Of a DNA stretch of 64,000 nucleotides, positions 4,003-24,367 are shown piece after piece. Under the pieces are notes generated by a model that was not told where the DNA came from, did not search any database, and was given only the letters and a program-made list of their open reading frames with translations. The stretch comes from Billgrantia tianxiuensis (GTDB lineage Bacteria; Pseudomonadota; Gammaproteobacteria; Pseudomonadales; Halomonadaceae), in NCBI RefSeq assembly GCF_009834345.1, contig NZ_CP035042.1, forward strand, positions 2,976,001 through 3,040,000. Reading direction: 5' to 3'. How positions within the stretch are numbered: the stretch's first letter is position 1; each line of letters begins with the position of its first letter. Made by a program: the position numbers and the translations under genes.

Positions 4003-4015
4003 CACCTCGCGGCGA

Positions 4016-4056
4016 AGATAAAGAAAAAGCCGCTTGGCACGATGCGCCAAGCGGCT
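4016..4056 (-). terminator. Rho-independent terminator of tRNA-Ala
   Basis: Read on the minus strand, an 11-bp arm AGCCGCTTGGC pairs across a seven-base loop with GCCAAGCGGCT and is followed by TTTTTCTTT. It lies 18 bases beyond the 3' end of tRNA-Ala, as expected for its transcript end. Confidence 0.85.
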
Positions 4057-4073
4057 GATTCGTATAGGCTTGT

Positions 4074-4149
4074 TGGTGGAGCCTAGCGGGATCGAACCGC
4101 TGACCTCAACACTGCCAGTGTTGCGCTCTCCCAGCTGAGCTAAGGCCCC
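4074..4149 (-). tRNA. tRNA-Ala (anticodon GGC)
   Basis: 76 nt including an encoded CCA end. The acceptor stem starts GGGGCCT and closes with AGGCTCC. The anticodon arm is CAACA, loop CTGGCAG, then TGTTG, placing GGC as the anticodon for alanine codon GCC. The T arm GGTTCGATCCC is present. A promoter and a terminator flank it as a single-gene unit. Confidence 0.97.
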
Positions 4150-19988: not shown

Positions 19989-20293
19989 TTATGCCGCCTC
20001 GTACTGGCAGCTGATCGCCTCTTCGAACTGATCCTCTGCCACCTGTGTCGCCCAGGCGCGCAACTCCGCCCGGCCATCATCGGTTTGGATGTATCGCTCG
20101 ATCAGGTGCGCCACGGTGGTGCCCAGCGAGAGGTTGTCGTACCAGCAGCCGAGTAGCCCTTCGTCGCGCACATGGGTGGCGAACGACAGCATTGCGGCGG
20201 GTTGCAGTCATCGACGGCCTGGGCGATCACGGCGGCGCGCTGGCTGACGTCGAAGGGGCGGCCGCGGGTGGGGATGTTGGGGATTGCGTTCAT
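19989..20293 (-). pseudogene. Small phage protein, one frameshift
   Basis: About 101 aa after restoring one base at the GGG run 20199-20201. The N-terminal piece reads MNAIPNIPTRGRPFDVSQRAAVIAQAVDD; the second reads LSFATHVRDEGLLGCWYDNLSLGTTVAHLIERYIQ. The pieces join as one smooth protein, and ATG 20293 overlaps the upstream stop (ATGA), so this was a single gene in the coupled chain. Function unknown. Confidence 0.6.
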
Positions 20294-20523
20294 GATGTGC
20301 GCTCCAGTTCGGCCAGAAGGGCATCGGCGTAAGCGACCGCCTCTTTGGCAGCTTCCTTGTCCGAGACGGTGAGGAATTCACCGTTCCCGCACCAAGCCAG
20401 CTGCCCAGATAGGTATCCCTGCATCGCCATGGCGGCGAAGTGCTCGCGCTTGGTGAGACCGATAGTGCGTGTAGTGTCCTGATCTTGAGTGACCGGCATT
20501 GCCGGCATGTCTGCGTTGCTCAT
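20290..20523 (-). CDS. Small phage protein of unknown function
   Basis: 77 aa. The middle (LTKREHFAAMAMQGYLSGQLAW) and the end (KEAAKEAVAYADALLAELER) resemble a widespread class of small early-phage proteins in which a TKREYFAAMAMQG-like motif recurs; their role is unknown. ATGA overlaps on both sides put it in the coupled early chain. Confidence 0.7.
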   Translation of the reverse strand: MSNADMPAMPVTQDQDTTRTIGLTKREHFAAMAMQGYLSGQLAWCGNGEFLTVSDKEAAKEAVAYADALLAELERTS

Positions 20524-20816
20524 GCCGCCTTCTCCTTCCGATGCTCTGCGATCCAGCTGGCAAGCGCGTCGCGCTGCTGGGCAAGAGTGGTGATCTCCGC
20601 TGCGCCGGATACCCGGACCTCGCTGCCATCCGCCTGGATATCAATGAGGGTGCCGAAGATCGGATCGCAGTTGCCGCCCAGCGCTCGTACCTGGCTCCAG
20701 GTATGGCCGTCGGGCCATGCCTGCACTTCGTGGTAGATGCGAATTCCGGTCTGGTCCCGGCATGCCAGCGTTAGGGCTGTGATGCCGGCCAGCAGCGCTA
20801 TCTGCTCATTGGTCAT
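20520..20816 (-). CDS. Small phage protein of unknown function
   Basis: 98 aa. ATG 20816 follows GAGGAG. The N terminus is hydrophobic-helical (MTNEQIALLAGITALTLACRD), then a beta-like middle (GIRIYHEVQAWPDGHTWSQVRALGGNCDPIFGTLIDIQ). No family recognised. It overlaps the previous gene by 11 bases and the next by four. Confidence 0.6.
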   Translation of the reverse strand: MTNEQIALLAGITALTLACRDQTGIRIYHEVQAWPDGHTWSQVRALGGNCDPIFGTLIDIQADGSEVRVSGAAEITTLAQQRDALASWIAEHRKEKAA

Positions 20817-21036
20817 GTCCGCTCTCCTCGATGAATCGACGTGTCTCGTCCGCAATCTCATCGACAGGAACCAACTCGATGGTGATGCGGTACATGCGGC
20901 GATCGTGTATCACCGGCTCGCTGGCCCGGTCGCGGCCATGGTCCAAAAGCATTTGCTGGATCAGTGCGGCCTGGGCGATGTGGCGAGGGGTGTCGGCCGC
21001 ACGACGCTGCTGCTGTCTGCGATCCGACATGTTCAT
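20806..21036 (-). CDS. Small phage protein of unknown function
   Basis: 76 aa. ATG 21036 is chosen because it overlaps the upstream stop (ATGA) and has GGAGG eight bases ahead. The N terminus is basic and glutamine-rich (SDRRQQQRRAADTPRH), followed by QAALIQQMLLDHGRDRASEPVIHDRRMYRITIEL. It could be a small nucleic-acid-binding protein; that is a composition-based guess. Confidence 0.6.
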   Translation of the reverse strand: MNMSDRRQQQRRAADTPRHIAQAALIQQMLLDHGRDRASEPVIHDRRMYRITIELVPVDEIADETRRFIEESGHDQ

Positions 21037-21272
21037 GAATCGAACCTCCACAGCTGCAGGTGGGCGGGCTTCACGCCATTTCGGCGAGCGATGTAGTCCG
21101 CCTCACGCCTGGCGTTCTCTCGCTCAGCCACGCTGAGGGGCTTGTCTTCAGCGGTGCGGCGCGCGGCCGGCCGTAGCCAGCGCAGCCGCTGCCCAGACTT
21201 GACGAGGTCCGCCACGCGGACGCGCTCGTCTACCAACATCACGACGTTGCCGCCGTTCTTGATGGGGATCAT
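21033..21272 (-). CDS. Small phage protein, first of the coupled early chain
   Basis: 79 aa. ATG 21272 with AGGAGG six bases upstream clearly sets the start, although the frame is open for 430 bases further upstream through the structured region. The protein is basic (VKSGQRLRWLRPAARR and RENARREADYIARRNGVKPAHLQLW). A chain of start-stop overlaps runs from here to 19989. Function unknown. Confidence 0.65.
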   Translation of the reverse strand: MIPIKNGGNVVMLVDERVRVADLVKSGQRLRWLRPAARRTAEDKPLSVAERENARREADYIARRNGVKPAHLQLWRFDS

Positions 21273-21296
21273 GGCGAACCTCCTGGAAATGGGCGT

Positions 21297-21321
21297 AAAA
21301 AAAGCCCGGCGGGTGCCGGGC
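21297..21321 (-). terminator. Strong intrinsic terminator or attenuator in the leftward early transcript
   Basis: On the minus strand GCCCGGC, loop ACCC and GCCGGGC are followed by seven T residues. It sits between the structured region and the gene at 21272. Either the leftward transcript must be antiterminated to reach the recombination genes, or they have another promoter. Confidence 0.85.
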
Positions 21322-21404
21322 AATACGCAGGGAACTTGCTGGCGTATTCTCGGCCCGCCAGCGGTGGCCATGCTCCTCACTACGCAGTGGATCGCGGATG
21401 CTGT

Positions 21405-21580
21405 GCATCGATAAGCAGGCTCCACCGAGGCGCTACCCTCGCTTACTTCCGGGCCGTGGTTTTTACGTGCACGTCCGCCAATTCGGACACAGGACGTTTC
21501 CCCGGTCTTTCCTATCCCGACGGTGCAGCTCGCTTGAGCACGGAACCTGCTTATCGATGCGCCCTGGCTCACCAGGGCGC
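21405..21580 (-). ncRNA. Candidate structured RNA in the leftward early transcript
   Basis: A perfect 15-bp stem (arm GCATCGATAAGCAGG at 21405-21419, partner at 21546-21560) encloses 126 bases. It is stacked against a perfect 9-bp hairpin GCGCCCTGG/CCAGGGCGC with a 4-base loop (21559-21580). Inside are further short stems on the minus strand: CCGTG with CACGG, GCTC with GAGC, GTCCG with CGGAC, and GAGG with CCTC. No convincing gene overlaps it on either strand. It ends about 85 bases before the terminator at 21297. Class not recognised; an RNA gene, an antitermination element or a remnant ribozyme-like element are all possible. Confidence 0.5.
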
Positions 21581-21621
21581 CTTTCTCAGACTTGCTCGTG
21601 GACTCTGGTCGCACACTTCTG

Positions 21622-21807
21622 TCATTGCGCCTGCGTCCAGACCGCGCCGAGTCGCGGCAGCTGGGGCGCTTCGATATTGCCTTCCTGGCTGGGTGGTGGC
21701 TCATAGCGCCCCGGCAGCGATTGTGCTCGCGCAGCTGCAGGAGGCTTGAGTTCCAGCGGTCTCGGTCCCGCCACCCATGCCAGGAGTACCAGCCAGATCA
21801 TCAGCAT
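21622..21807 (-). CDS. Small single-pass membrane or exported protein
   Basis: 61 aa. ATG 21807 has AAGGAG seven bases upstream. The N terminus LMIWLVLLAWVAG is a hydrophobic anchor or signal, followed by a proline-rich tail. It lies between two strongly hairpin-rich stretches of the leftward transcript. Unknown function; small membrane proteins in this position often act in superinfection control, but that is only context. Confidence 0.5.
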   Translation of the reverse strand: MLMIWLVLLAWVAGPRPLELKPPAAARAQSLPGRYEPPPSQEGNIEAPQLPRLGAVWTQAQ

Positions 21808-21831
21808 GGCGTTCTCCTTGTTGGCATCGGT

Positions 21832-21992
21832 AGAGCGCCCTCGCCTCCAACCATCTCCGGCATGGAGACCGTGACGGCCTTCATCGGCACTGAAGGCGCT
21901 CTCCGATGGCCATCGATACGCTCGATGGCCAGCGTTTAACGTCATGGCCGGTTCAGTCCGGCCCATCTCGGCTACTGGCAACTCAGTCCAGC
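21832..21992 (-). other. Hairpin-rich non-coding segment upstream of the small membrane gene
   Basis: The 303 bases from 21810 to 22112 hold no gene I can support. They contain an outer stem AGAGCGCC (21832-21839) with GGCGCTCT (21895-21902), an inner hairpin GCCTTCA/TGAAGGC (21877-21897, an alternative partner for GGC), CTCC/GGAG near 21856, a perfect 10-bp hairpin TGGCCATCGA/TCGATGGCCA (21907-21931) and GGCCGG/CCGGCC around 21947-21966. Such density suggests selected RNA structure in the pL leader. Confidence 0.5.
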
Positions 21993-22112
21993 TCGCCCTC
22001 GGCTGCGCAATCGTTCTGCGGGGCTCTTCCGAGCCGCTACCCCTATGTGTCAGACGTTTGGGGCGTCGAAGCGTCGGCCACATTGCCCGGTGGCTCGGGT
22101 ACCTCTACTGCT

Positions 22113-22490
22113 TCAAGCGAAAATCTGTACTTCCGTTTCCCGGCGAGTCAGGCGATGCGTCCGCCCTCCCCTCCGAATTCCTTCCTCTCCGCCGGTACCG
22201 ATCGCTATGGCCAGCACGGCGCAGAGAAGAGTGCGTGCAACGGGTCGGATCCATCCGAGCGCCTGGGCTCGTGCCACAGCGGCAGTTGCCCGGGAGACGC
22301 GAAGCTTGGCGTAGGCACGCTCGAGGCCCTTTTTCACGGTGTTGGGCTGGCGGCCGGTGGCCTTCGCTGCTTCCTTCTGCGTCATGCCGTTGACGACACA
22401 GAGCAGGTAACGGGCTTCCATCGGAGTCAGGCCCTGGCTTCCGCGGGTCTCATCGACCTGTGCCGCCCAGTTGCCGAAAGTGATCTCCAT
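22113..22490 (-). CDS. LuxR/sigma-4-like helix-turn-helix protein with membrane segment
   Basis: 125 aa, first gene after the pL-like promoter. Residues ~20-80 form a LuxR-type helix-turn-helix (GLTPMEARYLLCVVNGMTQKEAAKATGRQPNTVKKGLERAYAKL). A hydrophobic stretch near 84-97 (ARTLLCAVLAIAIG) suggests a membrane anchor, followed by a basic tail. There is no receiver domain. Its place matches lambda N, but it is not an N homologue; it may be an early transcription regulator. ATG 22490 follows GAGGGG. Confidence 0.75.
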   Translation of the reverse strand: MEITFGNWAAQVDETRGSQGLTPMEARYLLCVVNGMTQKEAAKATGRQPNTVKKGLERAYAKLRVSRATAAVARAQALGWIRPVARTLLCAVLAIAIGTGGEEGIRRGGRTHRLTRRETEVQIFA

Positions 22491-22520
22491 GTCTGCCCCT
22501 CGCTCTCTGTCTATGTCACA

Positions 22521-22563
22521 AATATAGGCATACCTATCTATCTCGTCAACAGGTGTCCCTATA
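22521..22563 (-). promoter_or_regulatory. Leftward early promoter pL with CI operators
   Basis: On the minus strand TTGACG (22549-22544), 17 bases, then TATATT (22526-22521). An operator TATAGGCATACCTATC (22523-22538) covers the -10 and spacer, and AGGTGTCCCT (22551-22560) abuts the -35. A further half site CCTATA lies near 22578. The same AGG-N4-CCT pattern occurs three times between cI and cro, so one repressor should control both. Confidence 0.75.
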
Positions 22564-22614
22564 TTTTTTACCCGATTCCTATATTCCGCTTTTGCGTCTA
22601 TACCTTACGGTCAC

Positions 22615-22639
22615 AAAAAAACCCGCCTCGATGGGCGGG
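22615..22639 (-). terminator. Intrinsic terminator after the cI operon
   Basis: On the minus strand CCCGCC, a short loop and GGCGGG are followed by seven T residues. It ends the cI-22658 transcript before the pL promoter. Confidence 0.9.
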
Positions 22640-22657
22640 CTCGTGGGGTCCTGGGAC

Positions 22658-23338
22658 TTATCTTCGGGTGAAAATGCCTCTCTCGGCCATGCAGTCGGCT
22701 GTAACCGACTCTCTGGCTGCCTCAGCAGATGCTGACCTTTCGCTGGCCAGGTGCTCGACCAGGTCGCGCTGCATCTGACGGGTCATGACGGGGCTGGTGG
22801 AGATCGAGCGCTCCATGATCTGCGGAACGCCAAGGCCTACCTCGTACATAGAGTGATGTAGCAGATAGGCCTTCGGCCCATAGCCGCGCTGGCAGGCGAA
22901 CTCGAGAACCTCTTCGGGTGTGGGGTCAGGGGCCGTCAGTCCATGCTGGTAGGCATGGAGAGCCTCTGCAAACACACTCTCTCCACGCCGGCATTGCTGC
23001 CCAAGAATGGCACTGACGAGATCATGGCTCCCGCCGTCTTGGTAGGCGAAATTGACGGCGTGCTCAATGAAGGTGCTTTCGTCTATCAGGGGATGATCGT
23101 AGCTTTGACCATCGTGAGCCCTGGCAAGGGACTGGTGGTAAGGGATGCCGCGACGTGCATTTAGGGCAGCAGTGAATCCCGCCTGAGCAACGTTTTCACA
23201 GAAACCTGAGTAGCTGTTCAGCTCGACTGCCTGCTCGATGTAGCCCTCTCGGGCATGTGCGAGCCAGTCACCGGCAACGGCATCTGGAGGGAGTACCGTT
23301 AACAACGATGATGCCGCCACAGCTGCCAATCGGATCAA
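22658..23338 (-). CDS. Exported protein of unknown function downstream of cI (rex-like position)
   Basis: 226 aa from TTG 23338, which overlaps the cI stop as TTGA and has GGGAGG eight bases upstream; a GTG at 23353 would add five residues. Residues ~1-22 form a signal peptide (LAAVAASSLLTVLPPDAVAGDW). The mature part has four cysteines (SGFCENV, GQQCRRG, EFACQRG, TADCMAE), suggesting periplasmic disulfides. It is co-transcribed with the repressor, so it is made in the lysogen. In lambda this slot holds rexBA. Superinfection exclusion or host fitness is a reasonable inference, not shown. Confidence 0.7.
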   Translation of the reverse strand: MIRLAAVAASSLLTVLPPDAVAGDWLAHAREGYIEQAVELNSYSGFCENVAQAGFTAALNARRGIPYHQSLARAHDGQSYDHPLIDESTFIEHAVNFAYQDGGSHDLVSAILGQQCRRGESVFAEALHAYQHGLTAPDPTPEEVLEFACQRGYGPKAYLLHHSMYEVGLGVPQIMERSISTSPVMTRQMQRDLVEHLASERSASAEAARESVTADCMAERGIFTRR

Positions 23339-24063
23339 TCGAACACCTCCCACCAGAACACGCGCCCAAGGATCTGAGGCGCCTCGTCCCCCATCATGCT
23401 GTAAACCTCTTCGGGGTGCTCGTCGCTGTTGTCGCTGACGAGCCGGACGCGGTTCAGCGGAAGCCGGTAAAGACGCTTGATGCGGAGCATGCCGCCGTGG
23501 TCGAGCGCGTAGATTTTGCCGTCGATGATGTGCGTGCAGCCGCGATCGATCGCGATCGGGCTGCCATCGGCAATTGTGGGCTCCATTGAGCTACCGGAAG
23601 CCGTGGCGCAGGCAGCGTTATGAGGCTGGACGCCTGCCCGGAGCAGCCTGGGCAGGCTGAACTTCATGGTACGGCCGTGGTTCTCGATGACCTGGGTGCG
23701 GCCATCACCGGCCGCGAACTCGACCTCGCGCAGGTACGGCAGCTCCACCTCGTCGGGGCGGAGTGGCTCTTCCCCTTCCGTGATCTCGGTATCGTGTATT
23801 ACCAAATCGTCGCCGCTACTTACAGGCTTGGGGTGTAGCTCGGTGACGTTGTTTGATGCCTCCATCTCGCCCCGGCCGGTCGCCAACCAGTCAGCGTTTA
23901 CCTTGCAGGCGCGCGCGATCTGCACCAGGTAGGCGCTACTGCGGGAATCACCCTTCTCGAGGTCAGACAGAGTGGGCTGGCGGATACCGACAGCTTCGGC
24001 CAGCTGCTTCTGGGTCAGGCCTGCGTATTTGCGGGCGCGGCGCACCCTTTCTCCGATGGTCAT
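23335..24063 (-). CDS. cI: CI-like repressor with S24 self-cleavage domain
   Basis: 242 aa. ATG 24063 begins MTIGERVRRARKYAGLTQKQLAEAVGIRQPTLSDLEKG, an HTH_3 (XRE) domain (1-65). The C-terminal S24/LexA-like domain (~115-240) has the cleavage dipeptide A118-G119, nucleophile S159 (GSSMEP) and general base K196 (MLRIKRL). RecA-stimulated self-cleavage should therefore couple induction to DNA damage. It represses pL and pR through AGG-N4-CCT operators. The open frame upstream of 24063 is not used: it would read through the operators. Confidence 0.93.
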   Translation of the reverse strand: MTIGERVRRARKYAGLTQKQLAEAVGIRQPTLSDLEKGDSRSSAYLVQIARACKVNADWLATGRGEMEASNNVTELHPKPVSSGDDLVIHDTEITEGEEPLRPDEVELPYLREVEFAAGDGRTQVIENHGRTMKFSLPRLLRAGVQPHNAACATASGSSMEPTIADGSPIAIDRGCTHIIDGKIYALDHGGMLRIKRLYRLPLNRVRLVSDNSDEHPEEVYSMMGDEAPQILGRVFWWEVFD

Positions 24064-24073
24064 ACCAGCCAAC

Positions 24074-24138
24074 AGTATAGGCGAGCCTATAGCGTTGCAA
24101 AAAGGAGTTCCTGTGCCTACTATATAGGCATTCCTATC
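24074..24138. promoter_or_regulatory. Right operator region with pR and pRM
   Basis: Three operator-like sites share AGG-N4-CCT: TATAGGCGAGCCTATA (24076-24091, a perfect palindrome), AAAGGAGTTCCTGT (24101-24114) and TATAGGCATTCCTATC (24123-24138), spaced 24-25 bases. Rightward pR is TTGCAA (24095-24100), 17 bases, TACTAT (24118-24123). Leftward pRM has TATACT at 24079-24074 and a poor -35, as expected for an activated promoter. Confidence 0.8.
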
Positions 24139-24154
24139 CGAACAGGCCGTCCCC

Positions 24155-24367
24155 ATGGATTCACCTATCTCTCGATTGATCTCCTTCTTTGGCACGCAGG
24201 ACCAGACCGCCAAAGCCATGGGCGTCTCGCAGCCTACCGTTGCTGGCTGGGCGAGTGGCAAGCATGGCGTGTCGGAACTCAATGCGCTCAAGGCTGAGCG
24301 GATTACCAAAGGAAAGATCAAGGCTTCCGAGCTTTGTCCCCGGCTGGAAGGCCTTGATGCCGCCTGA
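24155..24367 (+). CDS. Cro-like repressor (YdaS family)
   Basis: 70 aa, divergent from cI. Helix-turn-helix: LISFFGTQDQTAKAMGVSQPTVAGWASGKHGVSELNALKAERITKGKI. This is the YdaS/Cro type that binds the same operators to shut down repressor synthesis during lytic growth. The ribosome site is weak (AGG eleven bases upstream). Confidence 0.85.
   Translation: MDSPISRLISFFGTQDQTAKAMGVSQPTVAGWASGKHGVSELNALKAERITKGKIKASELCPRLEGLDAA

Follow-up and report, generated by a model that had tools for sequence, protein, structure and literature searches.

A pseudoknotted RNA in early leaders of halomonad and enterobacterial phages, a candidate exchangeable cassette

The leftward early transcript in the 64,000-nt stretch of Billgrantia tianxiuensis DNA analysed here (the window) contains a genuine new structured RNA, of a family that is not in Rfam 15. 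Computation establishes that its structure, strand and position are conserved, that it is present in some sister leaders and absent from others, and that there is one strong copy per phage record. With a probability of roughly 0.55, we take the element to be an accessory, exchangeable RNA cassette (an "RNA moron") that sits mostly in the pL leader and serves as a stable, trans-acting RNA with a target in the host; the trans-action of the core RNA on the host is our best guess. Strong covariation and a pseudoknot, occurrence in phages of two bacterial families and absence from Rfam 15 come together in this RNA, which is a ready target for deletion, over-expression and structure determination. 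Searches of open-licence PMC text, judged by title and the start of the abstract, listed no account of this RNA or of such a cassette site.

The element and its surroundings in the window

The stems that had drawn attention to this region in the initial annotation, namely a 15-bp stem of 21546-21560 with 21405-21419 (GCATCGATAAGCAGG/CCTGCTTATCGATGC), a 9-bp hairpin at 21580-21559 and a 10-bp hairpin at 21931-21907, are present in the sequence, and so are a AGAGCGCC/GGCGCTCT stem and a strong intrinsic terminator at 21321-21297 (Table 1). Folding of the 21290-22112 minus strand gives -381.4 kcal/mol, and its dinucleotide-shuffled versions give -340.6 +/- 10.2 (20 shuffles, 0/20 as good, z -4.0); the fold of the element alone has z -3.5, with 1/200 shuffles as good. 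Since bases 21559-21560 are common to the hairpin at 21580-21559 and the long stem, the two cannot both form fully. A counterpart of this hairpin is kept, with changed sequence, in the related loci G190, G186/L034 and L035 (as read from the sequences; in L035 the 5' half lies outside its fold).

Table 1. Features of the leftward early region of the window
Feature	Positions	Strand	Details
CI-type repressor gene	23335-24321		phrog_4; the putative pL promoter stands to its left
Terminator upstream of the putative pL promoter	~22639-22615	-	from sequence
Putative pL promoter	22521..22549	-	TTGACG-17-TATATT; good sigma70-type, read from sequence
pL transcript gene 1: sigma70-region-4/LuxR-like HTH protein, 125 aa	22113..22490	-	PF08281, phrog_3282
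Smaller second module, similarly built	21825..21931	-	hairpin 21931-21907 and stem CATCGGAGAGCGCC/GGCGCTCTaCCGATG (21908-21895/21839-21825); sequence and fold
Small ORF, 61 aa	21622..21807	-	hydrophobic N-terminus, ribosome site AAGGAG; from sequence
5' hairpin just before the closing stem	21559..21580	-	9 bp, from sequence
Whole element	21405..21560	-	18-bp closing stem 21559-21542/21423-21406 around the conserved core
Conserved pseudoknotted core RNA	21416..21549	-	model R2 positions 1-135, 96.6 bits; the window is among the 33 R2 seeds
Segment B	21297..21395	-	CTGCGTAGTG...CCCTGCGTATT, two CTGCGTA repeats, then terminator 21321-21304 and T7 21303-21297
First gene past the terminator	21033..21272	-	ATG 24 nt past the T-run; matches phrog_16647 (E 2.3e-4), of unknown function

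Gene 1 of the pL transcript codes for a protein that matches PF08281 (E 1.1e-6) and phrog_3282, "sigma factor" (E 2.8e-19), and a leader of about 300 nt follows it. At E <= 0.001, 81/275 genomes of the family contain relatives of this sigma70-region-4-like protein, general HTH matches included. The region had been described as nearly gene-free, a description that must be corrected for the 61-aa ORF with its AAGGAG ribosome site (21807-21622), for which Pfam and PHROG searches gave no match. Behind pL-type promoters, the stretch at 21964-22100 shares conserved noncoding sequence, 78-95% identical in pieces, with L004 (1442-1541) and L007 (1403-1535), and is possibly a further leader RNA. The hairpin at 21931-21907 is found as well in two halomonad prophages (L005 and L008), each time before a different stem-closed module.

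Pieces resembling segment B also occur in leaders that have no core (L007, L008) and at host loci (L009, L011 and others). Its TTCCCTGCGTAYT and terminator part (21297-21336 in the window) recurs in further genomes of the genus and of the family (L009, L011, L012, L013, L015, L016 and L022-L025) and a second time in the genome of the window (G000:C1:784184-784225); upstream of it, L009 has an acetyltransferase-like frame. This part has the look of a 3' end that phages copied from a small RNA of the host.

No Rfam 15 family matches the element. At gathering score there was no match at the element in the window (four tRNAs lie elsewhere) or in L204, L205, L206, L219, L222, L224 and L226, and the matches away from the element were two tRNAs in L206 and C4 and isrK in L224. 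Neither ARAGORN nor the Rfam tRNA search made a call at the element, and the annotated records examined have no RNA feature there. A likeness of GTGCGACC to a group II intron, also remarked on in the initial annotation, gained no support, as no Rfam match falls there at gathering score; with E up to 10, the window gave seven sub-threshold matches, none of them an intron, the best by E-value being SorX (24.8 vs 46.6 bits).

Fold, distribution and genomic position

The core consists of the helices P1, P2 (GCTC-AAGC-GAGC), a/a' (GGAT/GTCC), b/b' (CCGGG/CCCGG), P6 (GTCC/GGAC) and P5 (CGAGG/CCTCG), where b sits in the loop of a/a' and its partner b' outside it, forming a pseudoknot. Members of the family are RNAs of about 135 nt that combine three hairpins and the pseudoknot with a closing stem of unconstrained sequence. 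P1 keeps its pairing and varies freely in sequence, and the closing stem reads CATCG..CGATG in halomonad phages and GTTGTG..CACAAC in most enterobacterial copies.

Homologues covary, pseudoknot included. In a MAFFT alignment of 33 seeds, 92.7% of the cells were paired and 22 of 33 pairs had changes on both sides, with 0-3 of 500 shuffles as high. Among 63 distinct sequences 95.8% of 2061 cells were paired, with both-side changes in 27 of 33 pairs (334 cells) and 0/500 shuffles reaching these values on any measure, and slid controls on the same sequences gave 13.6-48.5% pairing. Alignments fitted to a model lean towards it; the MAFFT seed alignment still gives the values above. The 25 distinct later members, which took no part in model building and some of which are near copies of seeds, repeat the result (94.4% paired, 25/33 pairs, 0/500). 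At the pseudoknot pair of columns 55-120, CG, UA, GC, UG and AU all occur. Support is weaker elsewhere, as three of the four b/b' pairs show no both-side change among the 63 sequences, and pairing fails there in up to 8 sequences for a/a', in 11 for the innermost P6 pair and in 22 for the last P5 pair. That a structured RNA lies in the pL transcript, as had been proposed from the window alone, is strongly supported by this covariation and by synteny. We also considered a tRNA mimic, with P1 acceptor-like and P2 D-arm-like, and rejected it: there is no conserved 3' CCA, and RNAalifold lengthens P2 into what would have been the linker.

When 275 genomes from the window's family (Halomonadaceae) were searched at the DNA level, the element was found in two besides the window's own (2/275). 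The first, G190, has a 162-nt match of 95.7% identity, where the other DNA matches within the 3 kb reach 73.6-78.9%; the second, G186, has a 72% match across 155 query bases. Both matches end at the closing stem, and the remaining listed matches in the family are short pieces. Among the matches listed by a search with the closing stem, L096 (NZ_MSDO01000004) is the sole true copy, and it is the same element as that of G186. As in the window, the element of G190, G186/L034 and L035 belongs to the leftward early transcript and is followed by a CCCTGCGTA-terminator segment, from which about 700 nt of cargo separate it in L034 and L035.

Beyond the halomonads, the element was found in Klebsiella phages and in phiNP, a phage of Citrobacter (together 8 of 50,697 phage records), in two Leclercia phage-plasmids, in IMG/VR viral contigs and in E. 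coli, where 10/5426 genomes match, 5 of these over at least 80% of the query. A first covariance model from four sequences (R1) hit only the window's own genome at order level (1/390), and 23/275 genomes of the family at E <= 1, where G000, G190 and G186 were strong and 20 at E 0.02-1 were left uncounted. A second model from 33 sequences (R2) found 16 places in 15/382 genomes of the family of Buttiauxella, which we take to be Enterobacteriaceae (strict filters may lose some), none in five named enterobacterial genomes (0/5), and in a class-wide sample 1/350, again the window's own. A script compiled a set of 102 loci with 63 distinct cores, in which L174 duplicates the window and L203 comes from the same genome as L034; L209 was removed by hand. 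Matches of 49 nt in Shewanella and Hujiaoplasma phages were judged by eye to be chance, and the loci L270, L275, L281, L301 and L031-L033 were dropped on the same ground.

All 27 records searched whole had one strong match, some of these records being fragments, and eight extra matches appeared only at E 0.0055-0.88; one genome (G1323) has two full copies. Weak second matches lie about 500 nt upstream of the full element in L266 (~2868-2968, 18.7 bits) and L254 (~794-921, 16.8 bits), and are probably a decayed copy.

A CI-type repressor gene lies upstream on the same strand in 68/102 loci, and the divergent genes include a CII-like one at 58/102 and an O-like one at 49/102 loci; the element is therefore positioned in the pL leader, and from this position it should be among the first RNAs made after infection or induction. 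At six loci a same-strand Q-like gene lies 144-653 nt upstream, and in the two of these that were inspected (L266 and L226) holin and endolysin genes then follow; in L266 and L254 a late promoter, as read from the sequence, possibly begins just behind the element. Elsewhere tRNA-Met follows the core by 7 nt (L237) or 12 nt (L382), and in L206, L208, L325 and L396 the core lies about 580 nt behind tRNA pairs. T-arm-like hairpins of the GGTCCGTTCGATTCGGACACC type stand just before the element in the leaders of L205 (5840-5960), L233 and L253.

Exchange among sister leaders and the rival readings

Sister leaders were drawn from 50 IMG/VR contigs whose CI repressors are 63-100% like that of L271, 48 of them with a leader of at least 700 nt. 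Only one of the 48 (L332) has the core. In six others, all enterobacterial prophages (L335, L339, L354, L355, L365 and L379), a tRNA-Arg(TCT) lies 0.4-0.9 kb 3' of the CI gene, and among the leaders listed the rest have tRNA-like modules, further GTTGTG..CACAAC spans, or genes. A tRNA-like module closed by GTTGTGG..CCACAAC is found in L334 and two more of the leaders listed; that of L334 (~4006-4136) has GTTGTGG/CCACAAC as an acceptor-like stem and long inserts, with no tRNA call by ARAGORN. A regular expression for GTTGTG..CACAAC returned 84 spans, 61 of them distinct, in 14 sequence clusters, some overlapping, of which the core is one.

The halomonad phages give a similar picture, with CATCG-started modules of quite different interior after a boxA-hairpin part. 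Compared with L203, the sisters L196, L197, L199, L201 and L202 are 81-89% identical in the boxA-hairpin part and 40-47% in the next 120 nt, where chance identity is about 45% by estimate rather than by measurement, and R2 finds no core in any of the five. In two of seven halomonad modules (L199 and L202) a perfect closing stem of at least 8 bp was not found within the sequence at hand. Decayed or truncated cores scoring 30-33 bits also occur (L329, L330, L331; E. coli SCU-308, L37, D53-1). Among otherwise related phages the element is present or absent at one and the same site, as is characteristic of accessory cargo. The 47/48 sister leaders that lack the core, the changed interior in the halomonad sisters and the truncated copies argue for an accessory cassette and against an indispensable antiterminator.

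The cassette stem may insulate the fold of the core from the surrounding leader, and the core RNA would act in trans on a target in the host, with take-over or counter-defence as its likeliest role; other cargo at such sites, such as tRNA genes and small opposite-strand genes, may act likewise. Tentatively, one can go further and regard the leader as an RNA-cassette exchange site of temperate phages, where stem-closed modules (pseudoknotted RNA, tRNAs, tRNA-like modules and others) are swapped as anti-host or anti-defence payloads, the core family being a trans-acting RNA inhibitor common to halomonad and enterobacterial phages. If true, such leaders would be an RNA counterpart of anti-defence gene islands. 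With the cassette pattern, the content of long noncoding early leaders becomes testable module by module.

Several observations sit less comfortably with the cassette reading. The pL leader position in 68/102 loci also fits a role in cis, and the element near Q genes may lie just upstream of the late promoter, judging from sequence features. Cargo alone does not explain a TGCTCTTT-like boxA placed exactly 10 nt before the core, which is found in 71/102 loci. Moreover, the conservation of the fold goes far beyond the needs of idle cargo, which means that a specific function exists.

That function could be processive antitermination, as the initial annotation had suggested: the folded RNA would bind RNA polymerase in the manner of HK022 put, either by itself or together with Nus factors at boxA, and carry it past terminators like the one at 21297. 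In support of this are the pL leader position and the boxA motifs, since in 84/102 loci the 70 nt preceding the core contain a match to TGCTCTTT of at least 6/8, vs 18.6 expected (from mononucleotide shuffles; the loci are related and not independent), a boxA GCTCTTTAACAA precedes the element in L034/L035 (and is found in several core-less halomonad leaders), CGCTCTTTAAAT does so in G190, and L002 has a boxA as well. Behind the element stands a strong terminator (window, about 100 nt away; G190, 50-60 nt; L034 and L035, some 790-800 nt), with a gene start within about 25 nt of it in the window, G190 and L035 (in L034 none is evident); in the window the gene starts 24 nt past the terminator, and transcription must therefore read through. 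Near the Q genes, same-strand terminators are found behind the element in L226, L254, L266 and L279.

Against this reading, the window's own leader has no boxA (bases 20001-23000 were searched), and phage phiNP has no strong terminator within 3.7 kb behind the element. In L007 and L008, where R2 finds no core, a gene start likewise follows a terminator; the need for antitermination is thus common and the core is not. To this may be added the 47/48 sister leaders without the core, the truncated copies, and the single strong copy per phage record, rather than one per early operon. Given the boxA in many of these leaders, antitermination probably occurs in them; antitermination by the core itself is possible, if rather doubtful, and less likely than an accessory cassette. 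The initial annotation's second alternative, a stand-alone phage ncRNA, fits better.

Alternatively, the core, or an alternative pairing of its 5' strand, could act in cis as a switch or stabiliser of the leader, governing how the early mRNA is attenuated, degraded or translated and perhaps using a ligand; we regard this as unlikely. Pseudoknots are common in riboswitches, and boxA with the 5' strand of P1 can pair with an arm 48-144 nt upstream, with 43/62 distinct loci beating all 62 shuffles (largest 11.5); there are therefore two mutually exclusive folds. The arm is no better than shuffles in the four halomonad copies, L226, L254, L311, L206 and L208, though L215, near Q, has it; also, the downstream genes vary between contexts and we saw no constant expression platform.

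It is very improbable that the inverted repeats matter as DNA, in a hairpin-ended mobile element (MITE-like or attC-like). The edges are indeed sharp between the window and G190, with 95.7% identity inside and little just outside, but it is the pairing of the ends, not their sequence, that is conserved across the family; furthermore, the internal helices and pseudoknot covary, no target duplication was seen by eye, and each record has one strong copy. A coding or chance feature can practically be dismissed: in the window an open frame of 223 aa (21033-21704) runs across the element and a 46-codon hypothetical CDS is annotated over the copy in Klebsiella phage MK448232, yet homologue matches of 128-140 nt do not keep the frame, the changes are compensatory and other records have no CDS there.

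Comparison with known systems

The put RNA of HK022 suppresses termination via the beta' zinc-binding domain of RNA polymerase. Like putL and putR, the element described here is an RNA behind pL, in a temperate phage early leader, with no adjacent dedicated protein. Further put-like RNAs were reportedly described by King et al. in 2011. The put RNA is about 70 nt long, has two stem-loops and occurs in one copy each behind PL and PR (PMC9378689), whereas the element is about 135 nt, stem-closed and pseudoknotted, has one strong copy per record and is absent from most sister leaders. With the nut sites of phage lambda it shares, in many of these leaders, a boxA-like motif and a nearby hairpin. 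The nut sites consist of boxA and boxB and act with N; in contrast, no N was recognised here, the window's leader has no boxA and the core is far larger than boxB. N proteins are hard to recognise; none is annotated in phiNP or ST147-VIM1phi7.2, and none of the seven window proteins scanned is N-like. The mEpimmI phages, which use an N-like protein (PMC11893012), are a different case from the element.

Size separates the element from GOLLD, ROOL and similar ornate RNAs (see PMC12286853), which are several times larger, and it has no Rfam match. These are large structured natural RNAs, some of them phage-linked, of unknown function.

The tRNA cargo of phages and other RNA morons offer a parallel: the element is likewise accessory and on the same strand, it lies in the leader region where sisters have tRNA-Arg, and elsewhere it lies beside tRNA-Met. 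Unlike a tRNA, it receives no call from ARAGORN, its P2 loop has mostly four bases, it has a pseudoknot and it lacks a conserved CCA. For phage RNAs that act in trans against defence, RNA anti-CRISPRs (Racr) are a precedent.
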